Below, piece by piece: positions 1 to 20,146 of a stretch of DNA of 20,146 nucleotides; positions within the stretch are counted from its first letter, which is position 1, and the number at the start of each line of letters is the position of its first letter. This DNA comes from a virus. The stretch covers positions 1 through 20,146 of the IMG/VR virus record IMGVR_UViG_3300020408_000056, one strand, 5' to 3'. Position numbers and translations under genes: made by a program. The notes under the pieces are model-generated. The model was not told where the DNA came from, did no database searches, and was given only the letters and a program-made list of their open reading frames with translations.

Positions 1-171
1 ATCGTTGAATCACTAGATCTAAGTGATTTGAGAGACTTCAACCTCCGTCAGAAGTCTGCTCTCACAACAGTCATGAAGGAGGCACAGTTGAATGACAATG
101 GTGCCAATAACCAAAGTTGCGTTGTGATGGAGGTAGATCGCGTAAAAAAGCAGACGACCTTGACACTCTGA
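1..171 (+). CDS. 5'-truncated zero-frame part of the adenine methyltransferase gene
   Basis: Frame 1 is open from the window edge to TGA at 169-171 (56 residues, beginning IVESLDLSDL and ending DRVKKQTTLTL); its start lies upstream of the window. No domain can be recognised in this short piece. I read it as the amino-terminal frame of the methyltransferase that continues in the -1 frame, because a slippery heptamer at 144-150 joins the two frames and the downstream frame has no good start codon of its own. Without a frameshift, translation ends about seven codons after the slip site. Alternatives are a separate upstream gene overlapping the methyltransferase, or a homopolymer sequencing error in the run of six A. 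Confidence 0.6.
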   Translation: MVESLDLSDLRDFNLRQKSALTTVMKEAQLNDNGANNQSCVVMEVDRVKKQTTLTL

Positions 172-1523
172 AGAAGCAGACTGTCAAGGCACTTCTGGAA
201 TCGATTCCTCTGACCATGTTCTACATTATCCGTAGTGGTCAGAACGTGTACTCAATCAATGATGTGATCGGATCCCATATCTATCCATCTGTTACTGGTG
301 ACAATGAGGGTATTCTCTCTGAAGTTATCTCAAAGAATCCTCACAGTGTAGAACTCCTGACTCGTCGGATTGGTTTGGTGACGAACAGCATCCAGAAGAG
401 CATGAGGGAGTCAGTCTCCAAGACTATTGATAGTCTGTCGGTCTCATCTGAGATTCAGAGATCGATTCCTGCACAGTTGCTTGACAATATGATCAATGAC
501 TGTCAAGATATGAGCAGCACCTACATGTTCGGTGATCCCAGTGGTTCTCACTCTGCTCGACTCCTGGAACATGGTATTGATCCCAACAGTCTCACTGTTT
601 GGGAGAGTTGCGATAGTCATCGCAGTCGTGTAGGATATATTGATAATCAGATCAACGTCGTTGCCGCCCATCCAGACATGAAGTTCACCGCCATCCTTGC
701 CAATCCTCCATATCAGGATCCGACCAAGAAGGCACGGAACAATAAACTGTGGACCAAGGTGGTTGAGCAGCATCTGGATATGGTTGCTCCTGGTGGTGAC
801 ATGTGTGAGGTCACTCCTGCATCTGTGTTGGGTAACACGGGTAAGGGTAAGAAGTTTATGCAGTTGTTCTCTACGATCTACAACCTCAAACTCATTGACT
901 ACACTGCTGATGATTACTTCACTGAGGGTGTAGATATCTGTCGCTGGCATCTGGTGAATGAACCCTATCAGGGCAAGACTACTGTGATTACTCATGATGG
1001 AACCTTCTCCTGGGATCTCCGTGATGGTCTGCCTGTCTTTGGTGATGCTGCTCTCAAGCACTCTATTCTGGAGAAGATTGCAAACTCAAACCATTCTCGT
1101 ATTCCTTTGAAGATTGGTCAGGAGATTGCCAATGAGGATTATGTTCCTGATGGTAAGTATGAGGTATTTAAGACAGGCAACAAAGTTGCTCGTACAAATG
1201 TGCTTCCTACCACTGGTGATGTTTTGAAGTTCATCGTACCGTTCTCCAGCACATATAAGAAGAGGTTTGTCTCTAATGGATTTGTGGGTATGCTTAATGT
1301 GTGGTGTCCTATTGCTTCGGAAGAAGAAGGTTCGCGTCTTAGTGCAATCTTTGACAATCCGATCATTCAGTTTTTTGTGGAAAATTATAAAAGGACTTCG
1401 GGATTTACTCCTGCTATTAAGAATGCGGAAGTACCTGACATCACGAACTATGAGAACCTACATGAGCAATTTGGTTTTACAGCAGAAGAACTGAACTACC
1501 TGGAGAGATCCAATGTCATCTAA
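117..1523 (+). CDS. N6-adenine (amino) DNA methyltransferase, NPPY type
   Basis: This is probably a SAM-dependent DNA methyltransferase of the gamma/Eco57I-like amino group. The frame reads 468 residues from a TTG at 117. The catalytic motif IV (ILANPPYQ) sits at about residues 196-199, followed by a motif seen in this family (PGGDMCEVTPASVLG, about 225-240). A poor motif-I-like stretch, GDPSGS, lies some 55 residues before NPPY. The carboxy-terminal half is a likely target-recognition region. The start is unclear: the TTG has no ribosome site, and the first ATG in frame is at 216. I think translation enters at 150 by -1 frameshifting from the frame ending at 171. The stop overlaps the next gene by 11 bases. 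The enzyme class is fairly sure, the target site unknown. Confidence 0.75.
   Translation: MRCDGGRSRKKADDLDTLKKQTVKALLESIPLTMFYIIRSGQNVYSINDVIGSHIYPSVTGDNEGILSEVISKNPHSVELLTRRIGLVTNSIQKSMRESVSKTIDSLSVSSEIQRSIPAQLLDNMINDCQDMSSTYMFGDPSGSHSARLLEHGIDPNSLTVWESCDSHRSRVGYIDNQINVVAAHPDMKFTAILANPPYQDPTKKARNNKLWTKVVEQHLDMVAPGGDMCEVTPASVLGNTGKGKKFMQLFSTIYNLKLIDYTADDYFTEGVDICRWHLVNEPYQGKTTVITHDGTFSWDLRDGLPVFGDAALKHSILEKIANSNHSRIPLKIGQEIANEDYVPDGKYEVFKTGNKVARTNVLPTTGDVLKFIVPFSSTYKKRFVSNGFVGMLNVWCPIASEEEGSRLSAIFDNPIIQFFVENYKRTSGFTPAIKNAEVPDITNYENLHEQFGFTAEELNYLERSNVI
129..189 (+). promoter_or_regulatory. Candidate -1 programmed ribosomal frameshift signal (dnaX-like)
   Basis: Four parts are seen in the expected order. 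A Shine-Dalgarno-like GGAGG lies at 129-133 with no start codon placed to use it. The slippery heptamer A AAA AAG lies at 144-150, in register with the zero frame (GTA AAA AAG), 10 nt after GGAGG. A 7-nt spacer (151-157) follows. The hairpin then pairs 158-165 with 182-189 (8 bp), has one C-C mismatch (166/181), pairs 167-170 with 177-180 (4 bp) and closes with loop AAGAAG. A -1 slip moves ribosomes from frame 1 into the frame open to 1523, giving ...DRVKK-ADDLDTLKK.... This matches the known E. coli dnaX arrangement (upstream SD, A AAA AAG, hairpin). Function is inferred. Confidence 0.7.
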
Positions 1524-1929
1524 GAATCGTCATAATCAACAGCATGGGTCTACTATTGAACGCTCTGATGAGCGGATCAGTCAGACTGCGGAGGTCTTCA
1601 CTCCTCTTGCTCTGGTAGAACAGATGATTCGAGAGATTCCTGTGTCTCAACTTGAGGATCCTGAGTCTAAGTTTATGGACAACTGTGCTGGTAGTGGTAA
1701 CTTCCTTGTTTGTATGTGTGATGCACTGCAGGAATATCACAGCAGAGATCACATTATCAACAACATGCTCTATGCTGTGGAGTTGATGGAAGATAACCAT
1801 AAAGAGATGTGCAGGAGACTTGGTGTTCCTGTAGATCACCCACACTTTGTCTGTGCAGATGCACTTCAGTATCATTACAGGTTTGATGGAACCACAGGAC
1901 CCATCACAGTAGATCAATTCCTGGTATAA
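1513..1929 (+). CDS. Short N6-DNA-methylase-like protein with SAM-binding motifs only
   Basis: The 138-residue protein resembles the amino-terminal half of the N-6 DNA methylase family (HsdM/type II). SQTAEVFTP is at about residues 22-30, SAM-binding motif I (DNCAGSGNF) at 56-64, an acidic motif II region (YAVELMEDNHK) follows, and a motif III-like CADAL comes near residue 116. It stops before the place where the catalytic NPPF/Y motif would come, so it cannot be a complete methyltransferase. ATG 1513 has GGAGA just upstream and overlaps the NPPY-bearing gene by 11 bases. It may be a truncated paralogue, or it may supply the SAM site to the upstream protein as a split enzyme; the second idea is inference. 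Confidence 0.7.
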   Translation: MSSKNRHNQQHGSTIERSDERISQTAEVFTPLALVEQMIREIPVSQLEDPESKFMDNCAGSGNFLVCMCDALQEYHSRDHIINNMLYAVELMEDNHKEMCRRLGVPVDHPHFVCADALQYHYRFDGTTGPITVDQFLV

Positions 1930-1936
1930 TATTCGT

Positions 1937-3190
1937 ATGCATATGAGTTCAATGCAACTTCGTCCCCACCAGGCAGAAGCACTTGATGTCATGGACACTA
2001 AGTCCAAAGGCACTGTGGTGGTCCCTACTGGTGGGGGCAAAACATTTATTGCCATTGCTGATGCAATGCGTGAGATGAACAAGATGGAGGGTTGTAAGAC
2101 TATTGTTGTAGTTGCTCCTCGTCTCTTGCTTGCTCGTCAACTGTCTAAAGAGTTTACCCAGCACATCAATAATGCTGCTGTCCTTCATGTCCACTCTGGT
2201 GGTCATGATCTTCCATACCATTGCACCACTGATCCCAGCATGATCAGTAAGTGGGATTATCACACTACTTGTCATAAGTTAATTTTTACTACGTATCATT
2301 CGCTTCATCGTATTCAAGAATCTAAAATAGTTGTAGACTGCATCTATTTTGATGAAGCGCACAACTCCGTCAAAAAGAACTTCTTTGGTGCTACCAGGCA
2401 TTACGCTTCTGCTGCTCGCCGCTGCTATTTCTTCACTGCTACTCCTAAGTATTCTGCCACTGTTAAAAAACATGGTATGAATGACAGTGTGTTTGGTGGG
2501 ATTATCTACAATGTTCCTGCCCCACGCTTGATCAAGAATGGTTCTATTCTTCCCCCGAAGATCAATGCAATCACAATTCCTGCTGTTCGTGAGAAGAGTG
2601 TTGATGAGGCAGCACTGCGGGATTGTATGACTCTGTTGAAGACTCTTCGTAGTGAAGATCACATGCAGAAGGTCTTGATTGCTGCTCCTAATACTACTGT
2701 GTTGGGCAACATGATTATTAAAACCACCTTCCTTCAAGAGGCAAGGAAGATGGGGTATGATATTTTGTGGATAACTAGTAGGCAGGGTGCATTCCACAAC
2801 TACAACAAAATTAGTCGTGAGAAGTTCTTCTCTCTTGTTCGTGAGTATGGTGATCAACCTGACAAAAAGTTCATTGTTATTCATTACTCTATTCTGAGTG
2901 AGGGTATCTCTGTTCCTGGTCTCACATCATTAGTTCTGATGCGTCAGATGAATGTTATTGAGATGTGTCAGTCTGTCGGTCGCGTTCTCCGTCTACATCT
3001 TGATGATGTCAAGAGAATACAACAAGGACAACTTACTCCAGGTAAACTGGAAGACTACAAGAAGTCCTTTGGACTTGTTCATGTCCCTGTCTACAGCAAT
3101 GTTGGCATCTCTACAGTCAAGCGTCTGCAGGATGTAGTAAATACAGTGTTTGTAGAGGGACAACCAGCAATTAGTACAGTAAAACGATGA
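1937..3190 (+). CDS. SF2 DEAH-box helicase/translocase (ResIII-like)
   Basis: A 417-residue superfamily 2 helicase with a complete motor. A Q-motif-like region (LRPHQAEAL) is at 8-16, Walker A VPTGGGKT at 29-36, motif Ia around APRLLLARQL, Walker B DEAH at 139-142, motif III FTATP about 30 residues later, and motif VI QSVGRVLR at 345-352. It is related to the Res subunit of type III and other restriction systems and to phage UvsW-like helicases, but no nuclease domain is visible. It begins 7 bases after the methylase fragment and ends in a 4-base overlap (ATGA) with the next gene, so it is co-translated with the methylase block. Its role could be replication, recombination or a reduced restriction-modification machine. 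Confidence 0.85.
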   Translation: MHMSSMQLRPHQAEALDVMDTKSKGTVVVPTGGGKTFIAIADAMREMNKMEGCKTIVVVAPRLLLARQLSKEFTQHINNAAVLHVHSGGHDLPYHCTTDPSMISKWDYHTTCHKLIFTTYHSLHRIQESKIVVDCIYFDEAHNSVKKNFFGATRHYASAARRCYFFTATPKYSATVKKHGMNDSVFGGIIYNVPAPRLIKNGSILPPKINAITIPAVREKSVDEAALRDCMTLLKTLRSEDHMQKVLIAAPNTTVLGNMIIKTTFLQEARKMGYDILWITSRQGAFHNYNKISREKFFSLVREYGDQPDKKFIVIHYSILSEGISVPGLTSLVLMRQMNVIEMCQSVGRVLRLHLDDVKRIQQGQLTPGKLEDYKKSFGLVHVPVYSNVGISTVKRLQDVVNTVFVEGQPAISTVKR

Positions 3191-3621
3191 GTTATTCAGT
3201 TGAGCGTAAAGCATATCCATTCATCAAAGGAATCCGATGGGATCATGTTGATAGGCAGAGAGAGATAGAAGATGCTGAAGGAACCTATGAAGATAGGGGA
3301 GACACAAGTTTACTTGTAAACTGTGGATACTCTGAACCAGGTCTTCTACAGAACATCCTTATTCAAATGCAGAGGATTAATTATGGTACGTTCCATATGT
3401 ACTATAGTAAATTTAATGAAGGAGAAACTGGTGGGTGGCATGCAGATGACATGGATGTCCTAATTATTCCATCAATGGGTAGAATCAAGTATTTGTTTGA
3501 CATTGATGGTAAAATAGAAGAGGTTACTCTTCAACCAGGGGATGCCCTTTACATTGATAAAGGAACTCCTCACTCTGCGGTTCATCTTGAACCCAGGATT
3601 ACTTGCAGTTTTTGTGAATAG
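3187..3621 (+). CDS. Cupin/JmjC-like Fe(II)/2OG oxygenase
   Basis: The 144-residue protein has the metal site expected for a double-stranded beta-helix oxygenase: HAD (H85, D87) in GGWHADDMD, then GDALYIDKGTPHS with distal H129, and R137 eight residues later as candidate 2OG-binding residue. The GDALYIDKG.PH wording is like the cupin_4/JmjC-type hydroxylases. It is shorter than most cellular members, consisting of little more than the core fold. The start ATG overlaps the helicase stop by 4 bases. The substrate is unknown. A metal-dependent non-oxygenase cupin is the main alternative. Confidence 0.65.
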   Translation: MSYSVERKAYPFIKGIRWDHVDRQREIEDAEGTYEDRGDTSLLVNCGYSEPGLLQNILIQMQRINYGTFHMYYSKFNEGETGGWHADDMDVLIIPSMGRIKYLFDIDGKIEEVTLQPGDALYIDKGTPHSAVHLEPRITCSFCE

Positions 3622-3622
3622 C

Positions 3623-3844
3623 ATGGAAAAAGAGTGGAAGGAAGTTTACAACTTCTATAAAGACACTAAAGAGGGATTTGTGACCAAAGATGGTTATGCT
3701 GCCATCCCAGTTGCAGGTCGCAAATCTTTAGTTATCTGCTATAATGGACAGATACTGAAGACGTGTCAGAATGAAAAGTCTGCACGTAGCTTCATTAAAA
3801 AACACAGCACACAATCGAGGAGGGGTACTGTTTTTATAAGATGA
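3623..3844 (+). CDS. Small basic protein of unknown function
   Basis: Seventy-three residues (MEKEWKEVYNFYKDTKEGF...), rich in Lys and Arg, starting one base after the previous stop and ending in an ATGA overlap with the next gene. An upstream extension in the same frame would overlap the oxygenase by about 80 bases and was not taken. No domain is recognised. Its length, charge and tight packing fit the small unknown genes of T4-like cyanophages. Confidence 0.6.
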   Translation: MEKEWKEVYNFYKDTKEGFVTKDGYAAIPVAGRKSLVICYNGQILKTCQNEKSARSFIKKHSTQSRRGTVFIR

Positions 3845-4032
3845 AATCAAAGTTTATCTATGTTTCGCCTATTAGTGCGGACGCACGTATCTTCTTTGAG
3901 ATGGACATGAATCTTCTTCATTCTTGTAAGGTCAAGAGTGAAGACACTGATCAGTATCATGTCGAATCCATCACTAAACAGCAGTTTAGTGTTAACAAAC
4001 ATAATGATTTTAATTGGAGGATTGAACAATGA
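3841..4032 (+). CDS. Small protein of unknown function
   Basis: Sixty-three residues starting MKSKFIYVSPIS. It is joined by 4-base ATGA overlaps to the genes on both sides, which supports translational coupling. No membrane segment, signal peptide or known motif is visible. A GGAGG at 4017-4021 near its 3' end serves the next gene. Confidence 0.6.
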   Translation: MKSKFIYVSPISADARIFFEMDMNLLHSCKVKSEDTDQYHVESITKQQFSVNKHNDFNWRIEQ

Positions 4033-4250
4033 TGAACGCTAATCCACATCCTGATACTTTGGTAAGTATCACTTGTGATAAAGAGGGTTTGAAGACCATG
4101 ATTCAGGCAGCAATTGCTGCAATCCGATCTACTGATGAGTGGAACTTTGGTGATGAGTATGATGTCGATGTCACACCATATCATGAGATGCGAGATTCTT
4201 TGATTGCGAAATATAAATCAGTATATGGGAATGAAGAATTCATTGTATAA
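4029..4250 (+). CDS. Small protein of unknown function
   Basis: Seventy-three residues (MMNANPHPDTLVSITCDKEGL...). ATG 4029 lies 7 bases after GGAGG and overlaps the previous stop; ATG 4030 is not in frame. The last base of its TAA is the first base of the next ATG. It is acidic in the middle (DEYDVDV) and predicted soluble. Function is not recognised. Confidence 0.6.
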   Translation: MMNANPHPDTLVSITCDKEGLKTMIQAAIAAIRSTDEWNFGDEYDVDVTPYHEMRDSLIAKYKSVYGNEEFIV

Positions 4251-4738
4251 TGATAGAAGAGTTTTTTACAACAGATGATCTTGTTGAATACATGACCTTA
4301 CTCTTAAAGGTCTCTTTAGCAAGACCAGAATTATGCAAAGACTACAAGAATAGTTCTTTAAGTCGGTCATGCTTTGCCACACTAAATCTTCTCGATTTAC
4401 AACATGGTGATAAGTTTTATAACTATATTGGCAAACTTAAAGATGATGCTGAATTGTCTGCTGAATGTAAGTTGCAATATTATTATCTGCATCTGGTAGA
4501 CTATTCAAATGGTGGAGTTATGACTCCACATAAACATGACCACAACGAAGATTTTAGTTTTATTCTATATTTGAACGATTGTGACGATGGTCACACAGTT
4601 CTAAATTTATCTAATCCTTGTAAAATAAAACCAGACAAGGGTAAAGTATTATTATTTTCTTCGGATATTGTTCATCAATCAGAGTATTCAAAAACAAAAC
4701 AAGTTTTGGTTGGTGGTTTAAGACGTTTACAGGAGTAG
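4250..4738 (+). CDS. 2OG-Fe(II) oxygenase family protein
   Basis: The 162-residue protein carries PHKHDHNEDFSFILYLND near residues 93-110, the usual first metal-binding strand of phage 2OG oxygenases followed by the hydrophobic YLND strand. Later it has GKVLLFSSDIVHQSEY with distal H142 and K150, which could bind 2OG. Which residues form the facial triad is unclear, because the run is H94-K-H96-D-H98-N-E100; H98/E100 or H94/H96 are both possible. The HKH..DF..I.YLN wording is repeated in the gene at 5502, so the two are probably paralogues. The substrate is unknown. Confidence 0.65.
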   Translation: MIEEFFTTDDLVEYMTLLLKVSLARPELCKDYKNSSLSRSCFATLNLLDLQHGDKFYNYIGKLKDDAELSAECKLQYYYLHLVDYSNGGVMTPHKHDHNEDFSFILYLNDCDDGHTVLNLSNPCKIKPDKGKVLLFSSDIVHQSEYSKTKQVLVGGLRRLQE

Positions 4739-4739
4739 T

Positions 4740-4925
4740 ATGGATTCGAGCAAACATGAAAAACGTAAAGATGCATTCTACATCTTCTATGAGAGTATAC
4801 TGAAACCTGATCATGAATTGCGCCAGGACGCACATGATCAGAGTTGCTATCATGAATTGTTGGAATGGAGATCTGAAATTATCGAATATCTTGATAGACG
4901 CCGTAATGACGAATTTTATTCCTAA
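4740..4925 (+). CDS. Small charged protein of unknown function
   Basis: Sixty-one residues (MDSSKHEKRKDAFYIFYES...), highly charged and probably helical, with carboxy terminus DRRRNDEFYS. It starts one base after the previous stop and overlaps the following oxygenase gene by 20 bases if that gene starts at 4906. No known domain is seen. Confidence 0.55.
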   Translation: MDSSKHEKRKDAFYIFYESILKPDHELRQDAHDQSCYHELLEWRSEIIEYLDRRRNDEFYS

Positions 4926-5505
4926 TAAACACTCCCACCCAGAAGAAGGGTATGTCCCATACGAAACTGATCATTTTATCAAGGATTGGGTCATACCCTT
5001 TTTGCATGTATCCATAACTGATTGGGAAGATAAAAGAGAGCAATTGCTCAATCTTTTTGATAGGTTTTGTGAAGGAAGAATTGAAAACATAGGAGAACAG
5101 TGGACAGATTATCATAAAGAATCTCACTACCATTATCTGGTTGAGAATATTTTGTTTGATGATCTTTGCAATGCTGTGTCTGCATTGGGGTTTGAAAATA
5201 AAACCCCTAGAGTTGATACTGCATGGTATCAGATTTATAATCAAGGACAGCATCATGCCCCACATAACCATGGATTTGGTGGCATAAGTTTTGTTGTTTT
5301 TGTAGAGTATGATCCCAAGATACACCTACCTACAACTTTTGTGGCACCATTTTTGAGCATGAAGGATGGAAACGTTCTTGAATATGAACCAGCAGATGTA
5401 AAAGAAGGATCAATGATTCTCTTCCCCTCCGCTCTCATGCACTATGCTCCAACAAATCAAAATGACGTAGATAGAACAGTTCTTGCTGGTAATCTCAGAA
5501 TATGA
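4906..5505 (+). CDS. 2OG-Fe(II) oxygenase family protein
   Basis: A 199-residue protein if ATG 4906 is used (MTNFIPNKHSHPEEG...). The same frame opens further upstream, but those residues would lie fully inside the previous gene and look like shadow sequence. The metal region is HHAPHNHGFGGISFVVFVEYD (H116-H122), followed by GSMILFPSALMHYAP with distal H179 and R190 as candidate 2OG-binding residue. PHNHG followed by a gap and FVEY matches the 2OG-FeII_Oxy_5-like proteins common in T4-like cyanophages. It ends with an ATGA overlap. The substrate is unknown. Confidence 0.7.
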   Translation: MTNFIPNKHSHPEEGYVPYETDHFIKDWVIPFLHVSITDWEDKREQLLNLFDRFCEGRIENIGEQWTDYHKESHYHYLVENILFDDLCNAVSALGFENKTPRVDTAWYQIYNQGQHHAPHNHGFGGISFVVFVEYDPKIHLPTTFVAPFLSMKDGNVLEYEPADVKEGSMILFPSALMHYAPTNQNDVDRTVLAGNLRI

Positions 5506-6275
5506 ATCTTACTAAACAACAAGAGCAATATATTAAGAGACTTGCAGATCGTCTTGGTGTTGATCCAGAGACCCGTCTTGATGAGATAATTAGTGATGAA
5601 TACATGCGGACGTTCCGACCAGCGGAGACTGGAACTGAATGTCCCACTGTAGATCATATTGAGGATGATTATTATAAGGATAAAAGAGACTATGAAACGT
5701 TCTCCTTTATGGGGAATACAATTTACAGAGCTTACAACATATTCACGTCTCATGTTCTGAATGAATTGGAAGAGGAGATTGATGATGAACTTAGATCTCC
5801 CAATAAATGGGATAGGAGTGTGGAGGTCACTCAAGGATTGTCTGCTAGGAAGTTGAAGTATAGGGTTAGTTGGTTCATATTCTTCAGTGAGATAAAAAAA
5901 CATCTTTATAGATATGCCAAGTTAACAAACAATAAAAAGATTCTTGAGTATAAGATTGCATCTTACTGGGCAAAAAGAATGAAGGGAAATACTGAGGAAG
6001 ATTATGAACAGGAATTGTATATAAATTATAGAAATACACATAAGCATGAGGATTTTGATCTTGGGATGATATTTTATCTCAACAATCCCTCTAGGATATA
6101 TGGAACTTTAATTGAGAATGATAATAAAGAAATTATTTTGCCAGGGGATACTAATTCTTTATTGATACATCATTCTGATGTTAATCATGCTCCTGTTATG
6201 CCACAACCAATTGTTGCTAATAAGGCACACAGATGTGTAATCGTAATTGATTTTAAACACGAGTCCAAACTATGA
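5502..6275 (+). CDS. 2OG-Fe(II) oxygenase-like protein with extra N-terminal region
   Basis: The 257-residue protein has an oxygenase-like carboxy-terminal half: THKHEDFDLGMIFYLNN (H180, H182, D184), then LPGDTNSLLIHHSDVNHAPV with distal H229 and R244. The first 130 residues are acidic and of unknown type. The carboxy-terminal part resembles the gene at 4250 (shared HKH..DF..I.YLN), suggesting duplication. ATGA overlaps join it to both neighbours. Whether the triad is H180/D184 or H182/D184 cannot be settled by eye. Confidence 0.6.
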   Translation: MNLTKQQEQYIKRLADRLGVDPETRLDEIISDEYMRTFRPAETGTECPTVDHIEDDYYKDKRDYETFSFMGNTIYRAYNIFTSHVLNELEEEIDDELRSPNKWDRSVEVTQGLSARKLKYRVSWFIFFSEIKKHLYRYAKLTNNKKILEYKIASYWAKRMKGNTEEDYEQELYINYRNTHKHEDFDLGMIFYLNNPSRIYGTLIENDNKEIILPGDTNSLLIHHSDVNHAPVMPQPIVANKAHRCVIVIDFKHESKL

Positions 6276-6505
6276 ACTCTAGCGAACGTATTAAATACTT
6301 TAGTATAGTAAATAAAATCAACAGGGGTGAGTTTGATAAACTCACAGAGGATGAGATGACACTGCTACAAAAAGATCCTTCATTCTTAACGGGCATGAAG
6401 AAGTCCAGAGAAAAAAAGGATCTTCTTCGTAAAAGTAGTCAGCATCATGGTACTATTGAGGAGATACTATTTGAACTTGACTTGTCAAAGACCCTGTATA
6501 AGTGA
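6272..6505 (+). CDS. Small protein of unknown function
   Basis: Seventy-seven residues (MNSSERIKYFSIVNKINRGEFDKL...), charged and likely all-helical. Its start overlaps the preceding oxygenase stop by 4 bases. It is followed by 27 bases before the HNH gene, the first clear gap in this operon. No known domain is seen. Confidence 0.55.
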   Translation: MNSSERIKYFSIVNKINRGEFDKLTEDEMTLLQKDPSFLTGMKKSREKKDLLRKSSQHHGTIEEILFELDLSKTLYK

Positions 6506-6532
6506 TAAAATGTCCTTAAACAAATAACTTGT

Positions 6533-7009
6533 ATGGAGCATTTAAAAATTCAACCACACCAAACGGTTCTGGTTCTCAATTCAAGTTATGAACCAATTAA
6601 TTTTACTAATTGGAAGCGAGCAGTAGTTCTTGTTTTAAAGGAGAAGGTTCAGGTTCTATCAGGAAGAGTAGTAAGACTTCTTAATTACATAAAAGTTCCT
6701 ATCAGGAGTTTTATGTCAAATCGCCCAACACGTAGTATGATATACAAGAGAGATAAAAACTCTTGTCAATATTGTGGGGCAACAACCAAACTTACTATAG
6801 ACCATGTAATTCCTCGTAGTAAAGGCGGAGAAGATTCGTGGGAAAATTTAGTTGTTGCATGCTCTTCTTGCAACGTTAAAAAAAGCGATAAAATGCTTGA
6901 ACAAACAAACCTTAAATTGAGGAAACAACCCAGAGCACCATATAGCACAGTTGCTATTGATTTAGCAGAATCAAGTGTTGATGAGTGGAGAGAGTATAGT
7001 TACACCTAG
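6533..7009 (+). CDS. HNH endonuclease of the cyanobacterial type
   Basis: The 158-residue protein has a full HNH/zinc module: C78-x2-C81 (SCQYCG), D90-H91 (TIDHVIPRSKGG), the Asn of SWENLV, and C110-x2-C113 (CSSCN). The amino-terminal part (VLVLNSSYEPINFTNWKRAVVL) is the signature of a chromosomal HNH family found widely in cyanobacteria, so a host origin is likely. It could act as a homing-type nuclease, in host DNA degradation or in packaging; the sequence does not say which. The ATG follows a 27-base gap with no strong ribosome site. Confidence 0.85.
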   Translation: MEHLKIQPHQTVLVLNSSYEPINFTNWKRAVVLVLKEKVQVLSGRVVRLLNYIKVPIRSFMSNRPTRSMIYKRDKNSCQYCGATTKLTIDHVIPRSKGGEDSWENLVVACSSCNVKKSDKMLEQTNLKLRKQPRAPYSTVAIDLAESSVDEWREYSYT

Positions 7010-7017
7010 GAGATATT

Positions 7018-7572
7018 ATGTTTTATCGTAAATTGAATCGACAATTTGTCATTGATCATTATCAAAAAACTGGGAGCAAGATAGAGTATGGCATTGATAC
7101 TCCTTTGGGTTTTATGGGAATTAAGTATTCCTATGTTACAACTCCTCAGGACGAGGAACTATACCGCGTCGTTCCTGCTCGTGACCGCGACAACTGTACA
7201 TTATCCGTGATGGAGTTGAATTATAAGATTCCTCCACATACTGATAGTGATATTGAAGCAATTATCAATTTTTATATTAGAACTGATAGATGTATTACTC
7301 AGTTTTACTATCCAAATAATAACCCTGAAGCAGTTGCTGAGGGTGTAGATGCTCAAACAGATGGTGCAGTGTTCCATGAAGGACATATGAAAAAATCTGT
7401 TAGATTCATGGCACATCCTGGTGATGCATATTTGCTTGATGTATCAAAACCACACTCAGTTATTCCTACAGAACCTGGACTGACTGATCGTCGTTGTATT
7501 TGTATGCAACTTCTATATAAATCATTTGATGAAGCAGTAGAAATGTTACAGGAGACAGGGTATCTTGATTGA
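7018..7572 (+). CDS. 2OG-Fe(II) oxygenase family protein
   Basis: A 184-residue protein with a normal HxD metal motif, PHTDSD (H74, D76), followed by GDAYLLDVSKPHSV with distal H146 and DRR at 157-159 as candidate 2OG-binding arginines. The stretch ITQFYYPNNN fits the strand after the metal motif. AGGAG at 7007-7011 lies 6 bases before ATG 7018. The stop is overlapped by the next oxygenase gene by 8 bases. The substrate is unknown. Confidence 0.7.
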   Translation: MFYRKLNRQFVIDHYQKTGSKIEYGIDTPLGFMGIKYSYVTTPQDEELYRVVPARDRDNCTLSVMELNYKIPPHTDSDIEAIINFYIRTDRCITQFYYPNNNPEAVAEGVDAQTDGAVFHEGHMKKSVRFMAHPGDAYLLDVSKPHSVIPTEPGLTDRRCICMQLLYKSFDEAVEMLQETGYLD

Positions 7573-8107
7573 AGTATTTGACGATTATTTGGGTCCAGTA
7601 GAACATGATCGTTTGTGTAGTTACTTTATGGGTAACTATGACAAAGGAGATATTGCTAATTCATGTTGTTGGATATTCAATGCTGGAGTTAGTCAACCAG
7701 GTGATGGTCACTTTCAACATATTCATCAGTTGTTCTCATCCCATCAAATCATTAGTCCTGCATGGTCATTAGTAGAACCAATTATCGCTAAAGAAGAAGC
7801 AATTGCCATTGCTAGAGTAAAGGCAAATATGCTGGTTAGAACACCCGAAGTGGAAGTTTTTGATGATTGTTTTCATTGTGATTTTGATTGTTCAATGTCA
7901 CACATGAACACTGCAATCTATTATATCAATACCAATAATGGATTTACCTTATTTGAGGATGGAACAAAGGTTGAGAGTGTAAGTAATAGGTTGGTAAGAT
8001 TTCCTTCAAACCTGAAGCACACTGGGTCTACCTGTAGTAATGCTGATCGTAGAATTTTGATCAATTTTAACTACTTTACTGAGAGATGTTTACAACAAAA
8101 CAATTAG
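7565..8107 (+). CDS. 2OG-Fe(II) oxygenase family protein (TTG start)
   Basis: A 180-residue protein with a typical short-chain P4H-like layout: IEVFDDYLGP at the amino terminus, FHCDFD (H104, D106), MNTAIYYINTNNGFTLF, RFPSNLKHTGS with distal H152, and R162/R163. The TTG at 7565 is chosen because the conserved FDDYL segment precedes any ATG, and AGGAG at about 7550-7554 is well placed. The HxD...H...R set is complete, so it should be active. It overlaps the radical SAM gene by 22 bases. Confidence 0.75.
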   Translation: MIEVFDDYLGPVEHDRLCSYFMGNYDKGDIANSCCWIFNAGVSQPGDGHFQHIHQLFSSHQIISPAWSLVEPIIAKEEAIAIARVKANMLVRTPEVEVFDDCFHCDFDCSMSHMNTAIYYINTNNGFTLFEDGTKVESVSNRLVRFPSNLKHTGSTCSNADRRILINFNYFTERCLQQNN

Positions 8108-8931
8108 AGTTTCATGTGACTCATACATGCAACTTTAGTTGTCAGGGTTGCTCTCACTATTCTAACCATGGTCATTCTGGAACAATATCGGTAGATGTTG
8201 CTAGAGAGTGGCTATATACTTGGAGTAGGAGAGTCAAACCAAAAAGATTTGTAATACTTGGTGGAGAACCAACATTACATAAAGATTTAGTTGATATGGT
8301 GTATATGATCAGGTTGATGTATCCTGATCCCTACACTAATATTGATTTAGTATCAAACGCAAGTTTTTTACATAATCATCCACAATTACCTGTAGCATTA
8401 AAGGCAACAAATACAACCCTAGCAATATCGATACACAGTACGAAGCATAAAGATTATGCTAGGAAGTTCAAGAAGGGATATCAACTAGCAAAGTCATGGA
8501 GGCATGATCTTGGTGTTGTGGTAGAATTCTGGGACTTTACTAATGAACATTGGATTCCACAATACAGGGGATTTGGTAGTTCGATGTTACCTTTTGAGGA
8601 TCAAAATCCAAAAGAGAGTTGGAATAAATGCATATCAAAAAATGCATTGCAACTACATGAGAATAAACTTTGGAAGTGCCCACCTTTAGCGTATCTTCCA
8701 ATGCAAAAGAAAAAGTATGATTTAAGTTCTAAATGGGATCCATACCTAGAATACAAACCATTAGAACCTGACTGTACTGATGCAGAACTCAAAGAATTTT
8801 TGTCAAGAGAGGACGAATCATATTGTTCAATGTGTCCTGCAAATCAAAGACCAATCATAAAGGAAGACCCTACATTACCAGTTAGTTATTGGGAGAAGAA
8901 GTATGATCACATGGGGAATATCATCGAATAG
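8086..8931 (+). CDS. Radical SAM enzyme with extra C-terminal cysteines
   Basis: The 281-residue protein has the radical SAM 4Fe-4S motif CxxxCxxC (C15, C19, C22: TCNFSCQGC) and the SAM-binding GGEPTLHKD near residues 61-69. The carboxy-terminal third has further cysteines (C182, C198, C230, C247, C250, including CSMC), like SPASM/twitch auxiliary cluster regions used by peptide- and small-molecule-modifying enzymes. It starts within the preceding oxygenase gene and ends 29 bases inside the carbamoyltransferase gene, so the three are clearly co-expressed. Reaction and substrate are unknown. Confidence 0.85.
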   Translation: MFTTKQLEFHVTHTCNFSCQGCSHYSNHGHSGTISVDVAREWLYTWSRRVKPKRFVILGGEPTLHKDLVDMVYMIRLMYPDPYTNIDLVSNASFLHNHPQLPVALKATNTTLAISIHSTKHKDYARKFKKGYQLAKSWRHDLGVVVEFWDFTNEHWIPQYRGFGSSMLPFEDQNPKESWNKCISKNALQLHENKLWKCPPLAYLPMQKKKYDLSSKWDPYLEYKPLEPDCTDAELKEFLSREDESYCSMCPANQRPIIKEDPTLPVSYWEKKYDHMGNIIE

Positions 8932-10327
8932 TCACAATGCTGCTCTTGCAGTATTTTGTAACGATTCTTTGATGTTCGCTAGTGAGAGTGAACGATTTAG
9001 TAGGATAAAGAATGATCCCAATATTGACGAACATTTAATATTCCATGCTCTGCAATATGGAGAACCTGATCTTATCTGTTGGTATGAGAAACCATGGAAG
9101 AAGAAGTTAAGGCAGTTACGTTCTGGTCAAGGATTGGGTGAAAAGAATTTTACCAAGTATTTTGATTGTAAGCACAAGTTCTTTGATCATCATTACTCTC
9201 ATGCTTGTGCTGGATATTTTACGAGTAAGTATAGGAATTGTGCTGTCTTAGTTGTTGACGCGATTGGTGAGAGCACCACTATGAGTATTTGGTCAGCTGG
9301 TGGTAATAGATTGCATTTAAGATATAAATTGGAATATCCTAATAGCGTTGGTCTATGGTACTCTGCCATGACTCAAAGAATAGGATTAAAACCAAATGAG
9401 GATGAATACATTCTCATGGCGCTATCTTCCTATGGTGACAGGACTAAACTTACATCTAAAATATTGAATGATCTGATTGGTATTGACTTCCAAGCAAAAC
9501 GTAATCTTCATAGAGGTTGTTTGGATTGGGCACCAGGTGAGTCTGATGAAGATATTGCTGCAGCAACTCAACATGTGTATGAAGTCTTGTTTGCTAATGC
9601 GTTAAAGAAAGCAAGAGAGTTAGTTGGTAGTAATAAATTGGTATTGACTGGTGGATGTGCTTTGAATTGTGTAGCAAACTCAAAAGCATATGATTTTTTT
9701 GATGATGTTTGGATAATGCCTGCTCCAGGAGACTCTGGATCTGCTATTGGTGCTGTACTAGCACATACGCGGAAGAGAATAAAATTCTCTCCCTACTTGG
9801 GATATAAAATACCACATGAGGAGAAGAATAGGACCATTGTTGATCATTTAAACAATCATCATGTGTGTGGTTTAGCAAGAGGTAGAGCAGAATTTGGACC
9901 AAGAGCACTTGGTGCTCGGAGTTTAATTGCTAATCCAATGCATCCTGGAATTAAAGAGATAGTTAATGGCATAAAAGAAAGACAACCTTACAGACCATTC
10001 TCTCCAATGGTTCCCATAGAGTATGCTTCTAAGTATTTTGATATGCATCAAGACTTAGTGGAGAGTCCATTTATGCAATATGCCATTAAGTGTAAAAAAC
10101 CAGAGTTATTGCATGGTGTTGTACATGTTGATAATACAAGCAGAGTTCAAACTGTGAAAAAATGTGATGCACCTAAACTGCATGATTTGCTAATGAGATG
10201 GAAGCATGTTAGTGGACATCCTGTTCTTTTAAATACTAGTTTAAATGTCAAAGGACAACCAATTCTTAATGATAAGTATGATGTTAAACTGTGGTCGGAG
10301 AAACATGGGATAAAGGTATTCTCATGA
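8903..10327 (+). CDS. NodU/CmcH-type O-carbamoyltransferase
   Basis: The 474-residue protein shows the Kae1-like metal/carbamoyladenylate site (DHHYSHA; H96, H97, H100), TGGCALNCVANS, the PGDSGSAIGA strand, and the carboxy-terminal YrdC-like/Carbam_trans_C signature FGPRALGARSLIANP, with PVLLNTSLNVKGQPI near the end. Family members move carbamoyl from carbamoyl phosphate to a hydroxyl group of sugars, antibiotics or, in some viruses, 5-hydroxymethylcytosine. It is shorter than the usual 550-600 residues but has both halves. ATG 8903 has GGAG about 8 bases upstream and overlaps the radical SAM gene. The acceptor here is unknown. Confidence 0.9.
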   Translation: MITWGISSNSHNAALAVFCNDSLMFASESERFSRIKNDPNIDEHLIFHALQYGEPDLICWYEKPWKKKLRQLRSGQGLGEKNFTKYFDCKHKFFDHHYSHACAGYFTSKYRNCAVLVVDAIGESTTMSIWSAGGNRLHLRYKLEYPNSVGLWYSAMTQRIGLKPNEDEYILMALSSYGDRTKLTSKILNDLIGIDFQAKRNLHRGCLDWAPGESDEDIAAATQHVYEVLFANALKKARELVGSNKLVLTGGCALNCVANSKAYDFFDDVWIMPAPGDSGSAIGAVLAHTRKRIKFSPYLGYKIPHEEKNRTIVDHLNNHHVCGLARGRAEFGPRALGARSLIANPMHPGIKEIVNGIKERQPYRPFSPMVPIEYASKYFDMHQDLVESPFMQYAIKCKKPELLHGVVHVDNTSRVQTVKKCDAPKLHDLLMRWKHVSGHPVLLNTSLNVKGQPILNDKYDVKLWSEKHGIKVFS

Positions 10328-11031
10328 ATTTTTTAGAATTAGAAGATAAACCTTCGGGTCCGTTTATGGATCAAGATACAAAGCAGTTGTATCAAAAAAA
10401 TCTAAAATCACAACCATCAAATTGGAGATATAGAGATAAAGTAGTACAATATACTTTAAATTCTCATAATTATAGGACAAAAGAGTTCCATATCATACCT
10501 TGGGCAGAGTCTGTGGTTATATTTGGTTGCTCTTATGTGTTTGGGATTGGTGCTGCACTTGATGAGACTATAGCAGCACAATTGAGTTCTATTATAAAAA
10601 GACCAGTCATAAACATGGGAGCACCTGGATCAAGTGCCACATTCTCATTATACAATTCTTCTATATTGAGAAAGGAATGTCCTAAACCAGCGGGCATAGT
10701 CTTTGGTTGGACATCTGCTGCAAGATGCACATTATTTTTAAAGAATAGCACAGTACATTGTGGTTCTTGGATGGAAGATGTTGGTGGGTTGGGAAAAGCT
10801 TGGAGAAGGTTTGATAGTAATGCGTATACACATTTGAATTTTACAAGACAATGTGCTCAACAGATGTGGGATGATACTCCATACGCAGACTTTACATTGT
10901 TCCCATCAAATAGATCTATGATTAATTGCCCCTACATAAAACAAATTGATTATGGTAGAGATTGTTGCCATCCTGGTGTAAAGACTAATGAACAAGTTGC
11001 TACTGTTATTGCAGAACAATTAAACCTATGA
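10324..11031 (+). CDS. SGNH/GDSL-like hydrolase or acyltransferase
   Basis: A 235-residue protein. Block I appears as FGCSYVFGIG, where the serine after cysteine would be the nucleophile. The oxyanion Asn region is INMGAPGSS, and the carboxy terminus has DCCHPGVKTNEQVA, matching the Asp-x-x-His block of SGNH enzymes. Many such enzymes remove or add acyl groups on glycans. ATG 10324 is chosen for its 4-base overlap with the carbamoyltransferase stop; an earlier ATG in frame would add 11 residues inside that gene. It closes the modification operon. Substrate unknown. Confidence 0.75.
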   Translation: MNFLELEDKPSGPFMDQDTKQLYQKNLKSQPSNWRYRDKVVQYTLNSHNYRTKEFHIIPWAESVVIFGCSYVFGIGAALDETIAAQLSSIIKRPVINMGAPGSSATFSLYNSSILRKECPKPAGIVFGWTSAARCTLFLKNSTVHCGSWMEDVGGLGKAWRRFDSNAYTHLNFTRQCAQQMWDDTPYADFTLFPSNRSMINCPYIKQIDYGRDCCHPGVKTNEQVATVIAEQLNL

Positions 11032-14513: not shown

Positions 14514-15556
14514 ACGTAACTAAATTTACTCTTATTGAAGCAGATAAGTATATTTCAATAAATGATCAGGGTATCTGGTTTACAGATGAAGATTGGCCAT
14601 TTGCTGATATTGAGCATCTTTGGGCAATTCAATGGAAGGATGATGGAACTCCTGAAGGATTAGGTCATATTGAATATGATTCATCAGATAGAGAAAATGA
14701 TCCTGCTTGTAGGCAACATATTGATAAGTATGTGAAGCATTGGCAAGATAAATTTGAAACTGTTGAGGCAGAGAGGATTGCTGCTGAGAAGGAACAAGAG
14801 AAGAACGCATTCTCTTGGGCAGAGGCAATGCAAGAATTAGAGACTCAAATGGAGGAGATGCAGAAGCGTCACCAAGAGACTCTAGATGCTGTAAATTGGG
14901 AAGATCAGCAGGTACAGAAGAGACTGCAAGATCAGATGGATGAAATGCAGCAAAGACATGAAGAGAATCTTGCTGAATTAGAGCGTGATCGTGAGATTAC
15001 GATGGCAGAAGTTAGTGAGATGAGAATGCTTCATGATGTAAATTTGTCTGAAGTTGAATCTGACTATCAAAAAGATCTGGCAAACATGGCAGAAGATCAT
15101 GAAGCACAGATGGAGAGTGTACAAAGAACAATTGAAGAGACACATGATGCATTCTTCTATGCTCAAGACTCTGTAGAGAATTCTCTTGGTGAAATGTCTA
15201 CGGAAGGAGCATTTGATCAGACAGAATTTGAGAATGTGACTGTATTTGATGCCAATCTTGATGGTAGTTTGTTTGATGATGCAGTTATTGAAGAAGTGGA
15301 TGGTGAAGATATAAACTCTGTCAGTTCTTCTCTTGAAGGTGATGTTGATGAAATCTTACACATAGATGATGAGGAAGATGAAGAGAAATCTCAGTTGGAA
15401 GTAGATTTATCTATTTTGGACAATGAGTTTAACTTGGAGATGATGTTTGATGACACTCCAGATGAGCAGGTTGTGGATGAGATTGAGAAATTGATTGATG
15501 ATACTGACAATAGTGACGACTCCGAAGTACCTGATGCTGAAGTACCCGACAAATGA
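14510..15556 (+). CDS. Acidic coiled-coil protein, function unknown
   Basis: A 348-residue protein in three parts. Residues 1-75 form a compact domain (TKFTLIEADKYISINDQGIW...). About 76-220 is a long coiled coil with four repeats of an EMxxRHxExxL-like unit. Residues 221-348 are very acidic (many Asp/Glu, DDEEDEE) and likely disordered. The amino-terminal domain resembles small marine-phage proteins seen near fibre genes, so a role in virion assembly or as a scaffold is possible but not shown. ATGA overlaps join it to both neighbours. Confidence 0.65.
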   Translation: MNVTKFTLIEADKYISINDQGIWFTDEDWPFADIEHLWAIQWKDDGTPEGLGHIEYDSSDRENDPACRQHIDKYVKHWQDKFETVEAERIAAEKEQEKNAFSWAEAMQELETQMEEMQKRHQETLDAVNWEDQQVQKRLQDQMDEMQQRHEENLAELERDREITMAEVSEMRMLHDVNLSEVESDYQKDLANMAEDHEAQMESVQRTIEETHDAFFYAQDSVENSLGEMSTEGAFDQTEFENVTVFDANLDGSLFDDAVIEEVDGEDINSVSSSLEGDVDEILHIDDEEDEEKSQLEVDLSILDNEFNLEMMFDDTPDEQVVDEIEKLIDDTDNSDDSEVPDAEVPDK

Positions 15557-16704
15557 ATGAGCAATTGATTAAGGACAATTATTTGGTTGTTCCTAACTTT
15601 ATATCATCATCTAGATCAAAAGAATTATCACAGAGTTATAATGAATATGTAACAACCCATGAGATGGGTGAGGATCCACAGGTTCCTGGTTGTTTTACTG
15701 CAAAGATGGATTATATACCATTTTTGGAGTTACTTATTGAAAAATCAATGACTGTTACACAGTTGGTAGGGGAAACAGTCCTACCAACTTATTCTTATGC
15801 CAGGATATATGGTCATGGTGATGTACTAAAAGACCACACAGATAAACCAGAGTGTGAAATATCACTAACTATCAATCTTGATTGTGATGAAGTTTGGGAT
15901 ATCCACATAACCAAACCAGATGGTGTGGTAAAAAATGTGTCACTAGAACCTGGTGATGCTATGATATATCTTGGATGTAGTGCTTCTCATGGTAGAAAAC
16001 CATTTGTAGGTAATCACTGTACTCAAGTATTCTTACATTATGTTAGAAGTAATGGAGTACATTTTGAGAGTTACTTCAATAAAAATCATCGTTATGTGCA
16101 TGATCCTGTGAAGGTAAAAAAAGAACCCAAACCTGTAGTTGTCTCCAATAATGCTTTAGCAGAGTATATCAAGATCTATGATAATATACTCACTCCTGCA
16201 GATTGTGAGATTATATTGCAGGAATATGCAGAGTGTGATCTCTGGAAACCTGCATCAGTGAGTGCTGATAGTATTGAAAACCGTGAGGTTAGAAATTGTG
16301 ATACTATTGGTGTATCATTACCAGAACTATTGACAACAGAGACTAGACGTACTATTGACAGGATCTTCTTTAAATCTTGTTGTGCAGTTGCTCAAAAGTA
16401 TATGAGTGACTTCCCACACTGCATAGTAAAAGAAGATACTGGATACGATTTGCTCAGATATAATGCTGGTGGGTTCTACTCTGAGCACTGTGATAGTTTT
16501 AAAGAGATGATGAGATCAGTCTCGGTAATCTATTCTTTGAATGATGATTATACGGGTGGTAACGTCGCATTTTTTAATGGTGAGATTGAGATTGCGATAC
16601 CTGCAGGTAGTGTAATTGTCTTCCCATCAAACTTTATGTACCCTCATCAAGTTCTACCAGTTCTAGATGGAACTAGGTATTCCATGGTGACATGGTTAAA
16701 ATAA
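15553..16704 (+). CDS. Tandem two-domain 2OG-Fe(II) oxygenase
   Basis: A 383-residue protein with two oxygenase cores. Domain 1 (about 1-180) has LKDHTDKPE (H95, D97) and SASHGRKPF (H146), but no Arg or Lys at the usual place after H146. Domain 2 (about 205-383) is a prolyl-4-hydroxylase-like core with YSEHCDSF (H312, D314), MYPHQVLP (H365) and R375, a complete set. A linker rich in Lys and Pro joins them. It starts in a 4-base overlap with the coiled-coil gene. Substrate unknown; peptidyl hydroxylation is the usual reaction of the closest family. Confidence 0.8.
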   Translation: MNEQLIKDNYLVVPNFISSSRSKELSQSYNEYVTTHEMGEDPQVPGCFTAKMDYIPFLELLIEKSMTVTQLVGETVLPTYSYARIYGHGDVLKDHTDKPECEISLTINLDCDEVWDIHITKPDGVVKNVSLEPGDAMIYLGCSASHGRKPFVGNHCTQVFLHYVRSNGVHFESYFNKNHRYVHDPVKVKKEPKPVVVSNNALAEYIKIYDNILTPADCEIILQEYAECDLWKPASVSADSIENREVRNCDTIGVSLPELLTTETRRTIDRIFFKSCCAVAQKYMSDFPHCIVKEDTGYDLLRYNAGGFYSEHCDSFKEMMRSVSVIYSLNDDYTGGNVAFFNGEIEIAIPAGSVIVFPSNFMYPHQVLPVLDGTRYSMVTWLK

Positions 16705-19233: not shown

Positions 19234-19259
19234 ACATACATTGACAACAGTTGGCACTT

Positions 19260-20146
19260 ATGAAAGTTGGAATGATTGGACTTGGACGGATGGGAGAGGG
19301 TATGTCCCGCCGTCTTATCAAAAACGGACACGAAGTACATGGGTATCGCAACAACTATAAAAAATCTGAAGAGCAATTTGAGAAGGGTTATATCAGTGGA
19401 TGTACCACTTCTATTGAAAATCTTGTTCAAGTAGTTCATCAGCAGGATGGTCTCGTTGGCAGTTCTCCTGGTGTATTCATGATGGTTGTGCCAGCAGAGA
19501 CCGTAGAGGACACTATCGATGAGCTATTACAGTTTTGTGTGGAAGGAGATATTATTATTGATCATGGCAATAGCAATTTTAAGGACTCTCGCAGGAGGGC
19601 AGAACGGTTATCTAAACTTGGCATCGCGTATCTTGACTGCGGTACTAGTGGTGGTGTTTACGGTCTGGAGCGTGGATACTGCCTTATGGTTGGTGGTGCA
19701 GATCATGCAGTATCCGCCTGCCGTCCAATCTTTGACGCACTCGCACCAGGTATTGACGCTGCCCCACGAACAAGTAACGGAGATTATATCCAATACCCTG
19801 AAGAGCATGGATGGATCCTTGCTGGCGGTCCTGGAGCAGGTCACTTCGTAAAGATGGTGCATAATGGTATCGAGTATGGTATCATGCAGGCATATGCTGA
19901 AGGATTTAACATCCTACACGAAGCAAATGCAGGTTCCAAGTATGTCAAAGCAGGAGATGCAGAAGTTGCCCCGATGGACAACCCTGCCGATTATCAGTAC
20001 GACATTGACGTTGCTAAGGTTGCTGAGTGTTGGCGTCGTGGTAGCGTGGTTGGCAGTTGGTTGCTTGACCTTACCGCTACTGTATTACGCAGCGATAGAG
20101 AGCTTAGCAAGTTCGATGGGGGAGTATCAGACAGTGGTGAGGGTCG
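19260..20146 (+). CDS. gnd: 6-phosphogluconate dehydrogenase, decarboxylating (3' end beyond window)
   Basis: The first 295 codons of a 6-phosphogluconate dehydrogenase, which oxidises 6-phosphogluconate to ribulose 5-phosphate and makes NADPH or NADH. It shows the GxGxxG dinucleotide site IGLGRMG near residues 6-12, DHGNSNFKDSRRR, the substrate motif CGTSGGVYGLERG, and GPGAGHFVKMVHNGIEYG with catalytic lysine K198 and N202. The sequence is open to the window edge with no frameshift. It resembles the shorter GndA/YqeC-like type known in cyanophages and cyanobacteria. Together with talC it points to phage control of the host pentose phosphate pathway. It has its own promoter. Confidence 0.95.
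   Translation, partial: MKVGMIGLGRMGEGMSRRLIKNGHEVHGYRNNYKKSEEQFEKGYISGCTTSIENLVQVVHQQDGLVGSSPGVFMMVVPAETVEDTIDELLQFCVEGDIIIDHGNSNFKDSRRRAERLSKLGIAYLDCGTSGGVYGLERGYCLMVGGADHAVSACRPIFDALAPGIDAAPRTSNGDYIQYPEEHGWILAGGPGAGHFVKMVHNGIEYGIMQAYAEGFNILHEANAGSKYVKAGDAEVAPMDNPADYQYDIDVAKVAECWRRGSVVGSWLLDLTATVLRSDRELSKFDGGVSDSGEG

Follow-up and report, generated by a model that had tools for sequence, protein, structure and literature searches.

What do three overlapping genes, encoding a radical S-adenosylmethionine (SAM) enzyme, a carbamoyltransferase, and an SGNH-fold protein, accomplish for the virus that carries them, and on what molecule do their products act? The genes are located in IMG/VR virus record IMGVR_UViG_3300020408_000056, the whole of which, 20,146 bases, constitutes the window analyzed here. 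A preliminary description of the DNA had assigned them, together with an oxygenase gene, to a possible phage modification pathway with DNA, a virion glycan, or a host-surface sugar as the target. The results presented below indicate that the triad is probably a glycan-tailoring cassette of T4-like cyanophages, acting on a virion or host-surface glycan. A sugar target fits the data better than viral DNA and is the better supported of the two. The genes, the folds of their products, the intact catalytic residues, and the co-conservation are established.

The positions of the three genes were reproduced, as were the frame overlaps of 22 bases between the oxygenase and radical SAM genes, 29 bases between the radical SAM and carbamoyltransferase genes, and 4 bases between the carbamoyltransferase and SGNH genes (Table 1). 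The last of these presumes that the SGNH gene starts with the ATG at position 10324; a longer frame beginning with a GTG at position 10291 exists. Judged from the frame overlaps alone, the genes may form a single translated unit.

Table 1. Positions of the cassette genes and of the oxygenase-like genes preceding them in the window
Gene product	Position	Strand	Evidence
Twitch-type radical SAM enzyme, SpeY-like probable sugar/cyclitol dehydrogenase	8086..8931	+	PF04055, Cys set, AlphaFold2 (AF2) model, Foldseek
NodU/TobZ-type O-carbamoyltransferase	8903..10327	+	PF16861, PF02543, PHROG 1601, PDB matches, tree
SGNH-fold hydrolase or acyltransferase	10324..11031	+	AF2 model, Foldseek, invariant catalytic residues
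2-Oxoglutarate (2OG)-Fe(II) oxygenase-like protein, facultative cassette neighbor	7565..8107	+	PHROG 81, PHROG 274, HxD...H...R in sequence
Probable second 2OG-Fe(II) oxygenase-like protein	7018..7572	+	HxD...H...R in sequence; cassette membership unproved

Recurrence of the cassette in related phages

Viral contigs were scanned with the radical SAM and carbamoyltransferase sequences, and 58 distinct IMG/VR contigs were found to encode a window-type radical SAM enzyme, with identities of 64-99%. In all 58, an SGNH gene is encoded after the radical SAM or the carbamoyltransferase gene. The carbamoyltransferase gene is positioned between the two in 48 contigs, overlapping the radical SAM gene in 45 of them, and this overlap stays at 23-35 bases in most of the contigs. 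The cassette arrangement recurs in these contigs down to ~64% radical SAM identity, and chance is excluded. All 58 contigs belong to related phages, and therefore inheritance contributes to the linkage.

The window is assigned to a T4-like cyanophage because it encodes a transaldolase (PF00923; 11905-12564) and a 6-phosphogluconate dehydrogenase-like frame (19251-20144), and because its relatives, as read from their sequences, encode the D1 (PsbA) and D2 (PsbD) proteins. A scan of genome contigs with the radical SAM enzyme yielded only three loci, one of which is a phage contig in a Rhodobacteraceae metagenome-assembled genome (L117, from GTDB). This contig was probably misbinned, since its gene order matches that of the window phage. 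At one locus, L142 (contig G029, 66436-67807), an in-frame TAA splits the carbamoyltransferase gene, which may reflect decay or an assembly error.

The radical SAM and SGNH proteins

The radical SAM enzyme contains 281 residues and matches PF04055 with an E-value of 1.3e-10. Its CX3CX2C motif (Cys 15, Cys 19, and Cys 22) and four auxiliary cysteines (Cys 182, Cys 198, Cys 247, and Cys 250) are invariant in 40 homologues. The AF2 model has a predicted local distance difference test score (pLDDT) of 92.4. A Foldseek search with this model placed SpeY first (PDB entries 7x0b, 7wzv, and 7wzx), with template modeling (TM) scores of at most 0.71 over ~280 columns and E-values of about 6e-11 to 4e-10. 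SpeY, a twitch radical SAM dehydrogenase according to its PDB entry, is the sole full-length structural match. The hits that follow, viperin and MoaA, match just the core or align badly, and they are weaker by a factor of at least 1000. SpeY is likewise the best match among PDB sequences (E-values of 3e-7 for the single sequence and 1.4e-13 for the profile), and the profile weakly reaches the twitch dehydrogenase BtrN. A likeness to BlsE was considered and dropped: the PDB match 7wzv is SpeY, and BlsE itself (7vob) provides a weak, core-only match. Given the core motif and the four auxiliary-cluster cysteines, the window enzyme belongs with the SpeY/BtrN-like twitch radical SAM dehydrogenases. 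SpeY oxidizes a carbinol during spectinomycin biosynthesis, and BtrN oxidizes an aminocyclitol. The preliminary description proposed that the oxygenase could make a hydroxyl group and that the radical SAM enzyme could remodel it, an order that is conjectural. The SpeY-like fold, taken with the gene context, suggests that the phage enzyme may oxidize a sugar or cyclitol hydroxyl group.

The sugar context of the radical SAM family is established. Nine loci (S-SCSM2R and IMG/VR loci L187-L190 and L192-L195) encode a family member along with a homologue of the inosamine-phosphate amidinotransferase StrB1; the best PDB match of the latter is StrB1 itself (1bwd, E-value of 7e-59), the next match having an E-value of 3e-37. 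A short DegT-type protein is also present in eight of the nine. These clusters include oxygenases and glycosyltransferase-like genes, and some contain a nucleotide-sugar dehydrogenase and an epimerase. At L191, L206, and L207 the radical SAM gene is followed by genes for a GDP-mannose 4,6-dehydratase and a GDP-fucose-synthase-like epimerase, with a GT11 in one. The triad, a StrB1 cluster, and a dehydratase-linked radical SAM gene are all found in contig G028 (246 kb), and contig G033 (249 kb) also holds a StrB1 cluster, apart from its carbamoyltransferase gene. Relatives of the radical SAM enzyme occur in 8 of 392 planctomycete genomes, where one is fused to a GT2 (L219:7721-9514), two lie near cytidylyltransferase-GT29 fusions, and one lies in a polysaccharide cluster. 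In the pelagiphage Mosig, a radical SAM gene annotated as MoaA overlaps a carbamoyltransferase gene beside a DegT aminotransferase. Among the targets named in the preliminary description, the virion glycan and the host-surface sugar gain support from this context.

Note that the DegT-type protein has ~196 residues, about half the usual length for its family (L189:13858-14448; L002:13417-14004). The clusters of amidinotransferase, DegT, radical SAM, oxygenase, and glycosyltransferase-like genes (L187-L190, L192-L195, and L002:13417-17084) are reminiscent of aminocyclitol chemistry. A glutamine riboswitch aptamer (RF01739) is found at L189:609-655 in a cyanophage contig, and an Rfam search of the window and the relatives searched revealed no wcaG RNA near the cassette.

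The gene ending at position 11031 was not recognized by Pfam, PHROGs, or NCBIfam. A Pfam scan of 32 homologues of its product gave no confident family, and a profile search of PDB sequences returned nothing. The top Foldseek matches of the AF2 model (pLDDT of 93.5) are solely SGNH/GDSL-type enzymes. Residues Ser 70, Gly 99, Asn 111, Asp 213, and His 216 are invariant in the 32 homologues, and block I reads GCS in most of them and GDS in some. The fold and the catalytic Ser, Gly, Asn, and His place the protein in the SGNH superfamily; the modeled structure confirms the SGNH fold, and a hydrolase or an acyltransferase is predicted.

Included in the top Foldseek matches of this model is CgnD, the crocagin hydrolase (PMC10070186). 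Crocagin biosynthesis pairs the dioxygenase CgnC, the SGNH-fold CgnD, and the carbamoyltransferase CgnI, and a protein or peptide might be modified by the window enzymes in a similar manner. The oxygenases would hydroxylate a tail-fiber protein or a small peptide, the radical SAM enzyme and the carbamoyltransferase would modify it, and the SGNH enzyme would cleave or deacylate it. Several oxygenase-like genes flank the cassette, small fiber-like genes lie downstream, and many twitch and SPASM radical SAM enzymes act on peptides. Yet CgnD is just one of many SGNH matches having similar E-values, the full-length match of the radical SAM enzyme is SpeY rather than a peptide maturase, and the relatives of that enzyme sit among sugar genes. 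No precursor peptide was noticed, no systematic search having been made. A peptide target appears improbable on balance.

The carbamoyltransferase and the question of a DNA target

The carbamoyltransferase contains 474 residues, and both of its Carbam_trans domains score above the Pfam cut-offs: PF16861 with 156.8 bits (cut-off of 27; E-value of 4.9e-46) and PF02543 with 138.6 bits (cut-off of 24; E-value of 4.3e-40). It matches PHROG 1601 with an E-value of 1e-89, and NovN, GdmN, and TobZ in the PDB. His 96, His 97, His 100, Asp 277, Gly 332, Pro 333, Arg 334, and Leu 336 are invariant in 18 diverse sequences. With the two domains, the HHxxH motif, the late aspartate, and the GPRALG sequence, the protein belongs to the NodU/TobZ-type enzymes, and it carries the sugar/antibiotic-type motif GPRALGxRS.

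A phage carbamoyltransferase acting on 5-hydroxymethylcytosine (5hmC) in DNA has been proven, and TobZ positions W408, G421, and R423 mark off the DNA-modifying members (PMC8670742). By this precedent the window enzyme could carbamoylate a hydroxymethylated base, converting 5hmC to 5-carbamoyloxymethylcytosine, and the oxygenase, the radical SAM enzyme, and the SGNH enzyme would act on the base as well. The sequence of the validated MetaGPA enzyme from that report was used in the comparison. In a tree of 57 sequences, the validated enzyme and the carbamoyltransferases of Xp15, Acinetobacter, and Bacteroides phages form a group with 100/100 support, whose branch measures 3.29 changes per column. 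The clade to which the window enzyme belongs (98/95) is found elsewhere in the tree, within a group of phage carbamoyltransferases. A forced union of the two clades was rejected by the approximately unbiased test (p-AU of 0.008) with a reduced sequence set. Because it is unrooted and contains long branches, the tree demonstrates separation, not a sister clade. A DNA-acting placement, for which the preliminary description had proposed this phylogeny as a check, did not materialize.

The window sequence GPRALGARS keeps G421 and R423, whereas the validated enzyme, with GPRALCNTT, has Cys and Thr (TobZ numbering assigned by motif position). Position 408 is occupied by Leu in the window enzyme and by Ile in the validated enzyme. 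In the phage relatives of the DNA clade (Xp15, Acinetobacter, Bacteroides), genes for thymidylate synthase or dCMP hydroxymethylase are located nearby. A search of 15 contigs of the window lineage, which are possibly fragments and the longest of which is 246 kb, detected no such gene (PF00303), and no C5-methyltransferase was found in 16 contigs, again possibly fragments. Of 18 records tested with primase-linked or related carbamoyltransferases, only one has a thymidylate synthase homologue. The single long relative that was tested carries ThyX instead. In its tree placement, in the missing PF00303 gene, and in retaining G421 and R423, the window enzyme departs from the 5hmC clade. We know of no precedent in DNA modification for a SpeY-like radical SAM enzyme and an SGNH enzyme. 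Accommodated least by these data, DNA and its hydroxymethylcytosine are a very unlikely target.

Several observations weigh against the glycan-tailoring cassette. The nearest carbamoyltransferases outside the cassette (L023-L097, ~46-54% identity) are encoded between primase and DnaB-type helicase genes at ~70 of 75 loci, a neighborhood with no obvious sugar context. This neighborhood is one of the two weakest points of the glycan assignment, and it speaks for a DNA target in that genes linked to replication in some cases modify DNA. The other is that the 20 kb window yielded no identifiable glycosyltransferase or nucleotide-sugar gene. The carbamoyltransferase gene is missing, with the radical SAM and SGNH genes directly adjoining, in 10 of the 58 contigs (L162-L165, L169, L170, and L173-L176). 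An oxygenase gene lies within 60 bp of the radical SAM gene in 30 of the 47 contigs having enough upstream sequence and is absent or moved in 17. Finally, contig G033 has its carbamoyltransferase gene next to two SGNH genes and at a distance from its radical SAM genes.

On the basis of these linkage counts, the radical SAM and SGNH genes constitute a stable core, the carbamoyltransferase is frequent, and the oxygenase is optional. The four-gene set proposed earlier, for which a search in other phages had been suggested, thus holds for the core pair throughout and for the carbamoyltransferase in most contigs, but the oxygenase is not fixed and the carbamoyltransferase is dispensable. There is good support for the broader claim that the phage encodes a modification pathway. 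The absence of the carbamoyltransferase or the oxygenase from some lineages, together with the G033 layout, means that one linear pathway cannot be taken as proved. The genes could be mere neighbors with separate roles in a variable accessory-gene region, as the coming and going of these two genes and the separation of the carbamoyltransferase from the radical SAM genes in G033 might imply. In the same vein, second paralogues of the radical SAM and SGNH genes are found in different arrangements; in many of the 58 contigs a second radical SAM gene lies between an oxygenase gene and another gene. Separate roles are nevertheless unlikely, given the unbroken radical SAM-SGNH linkage and the overlap with the carbamoyltransferase gene that most contigs preserve. 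In G033 (L199:8905-12181), the two SGNH genes flank the carbamoyltransferase gene near psbA and psbD with no adjacent radical SAM gene.

Proposed chemistry, neighboring genes, and known systems

In the glycan-tailoring cassette, the radical SAM enzyme would most likely oxidize a hydroxyl group to a ketone on a sugar or aminocyclitol residue. The carbamoyltransferase would carbamoylate a different hydroxyl on that residue or elsewhere on the glycan, and the SGNH enzyme would remove or transfer an acyl group on that glycan. The product may decorate a phage-made virion glycan or a host-surface glycan modified during infection. We infer these reactions, their order, the one common substrate, and the location of the glycan. 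A more specific scheme, which we offer as speculation, is an aminoglycoside-like chemistry in cyanophages, whereby SpeY-like oxidation, StrB1-like amidination, DegT-type amination, and TobZ-like carbamoylation would equip a virion or host glycan with aminocyclitol-type residues bearing carbamoyl or guanidinyl groups. The window would represent its oxidation-carbamoylation branch.

With respect to the neighboring genes, the oxygenase-like protein that overlaps the cassette matches PHROG 81 (2OG oxygenase) with an E-value of 4.6e-5 and PHROG 274 with an E-value of 3.8e-37. The label of PHROG 274, DNA endonuclease V, seems wrong for such a protein. The frame preceding it overlaps it in turn and is a conserved neighbor in most related loci; family searches with its product gave no match. 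Approximately seven oxygenase-like or cupin genes are present in the window (at 3187, 4250, 4813, 5502, 7018, 7565, and 15553), spanning 3187-8107 and 15553-16704, some of them without any family match. Positions 117-3190 contain two methylase-like frames (Eco57I, N6_Mtase) and, after them, a ResIII/DEAD helicase, and an N6A-methylase with a helicase has been described in 14 of 16 cyanophages (PMC3037559).

The co-inherited cassette, with its intact catalytic residues and SpeY-like radical enzyme, argues that abundant marine viruses carry out a glycan chemistry that is selected and specific. The cassette supplies concrete enzymes for how cyanophages may alter virion or host-surface glycans and bears on why marine viruses of photosynthetic bacteria carry so many sugar genes. 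Cyanophage 'LPS' (lipopolysaccharide) gene clusters and Nol-like carbamoyltransferases are known from P-SSM2 and S-SSM7, and the sugar clusters were described there as possible 'stuffer' DNA (PMC3037559). In one paper a cyanophage carbamoyltransferase is described as a pyrimidine-synthesis enzyme (PMC9146016). Among the papers searched, none links cyanophages with both a carbamoyltransferase and a radical SAM enzyme.

P-SSM2 and S-SCSM1, which are T4-like cyanophages like that of the window, encode carbamoyltransferases beside sugar-nucleotide and tail-fiber genes. These 'LPS'-cluster enzymes are distant from the window enzyme (25-30% identity), however, and are not linked to radical SAM or SGNH genes in the records examined. 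The window carbamoyltransferase resembles TobZ, NovN, GdmN, and NodU in both Pfam domains, in HHxxH, and in GPRALGxRS, but it is shorter (474 residues against about 550-700), has Leu at the position of TobZ W408, and falls in its own phage clade. With the MetaGPA 5hmC enzyme and the Xp15-type carbamoyltransferases it shares the superfamily and probably the chemistry, namely carbamoyl phosphate and ATP to an O-carbamate; it differs from them in clade and specificity residues, and in a lineage in which thymidylate synthase was not found. The radical SAM enzyme shares with SpeY the full-length fold, the CX3CX2C motif and four auxiliary cysteines, and a common CP-x5-(L/M)P-x-Q stretch. Unlike SpeY, with which it is 18% identical, it is encoded by a phage gene overlapped by carbamoyltransferase and oxygenase genes. 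Finally, the StrB1-radical SAM-DegT cluster of S-SCSM2R and its IMG/VR relatives contain a homologous radical SAM enzyme (40-46% identity) and likewise overlapping genes, but have amidinotransferase, aminotransferase-like, and glycosyltransferase genes where the window has the carbamoyltransferase and SGNH genes.

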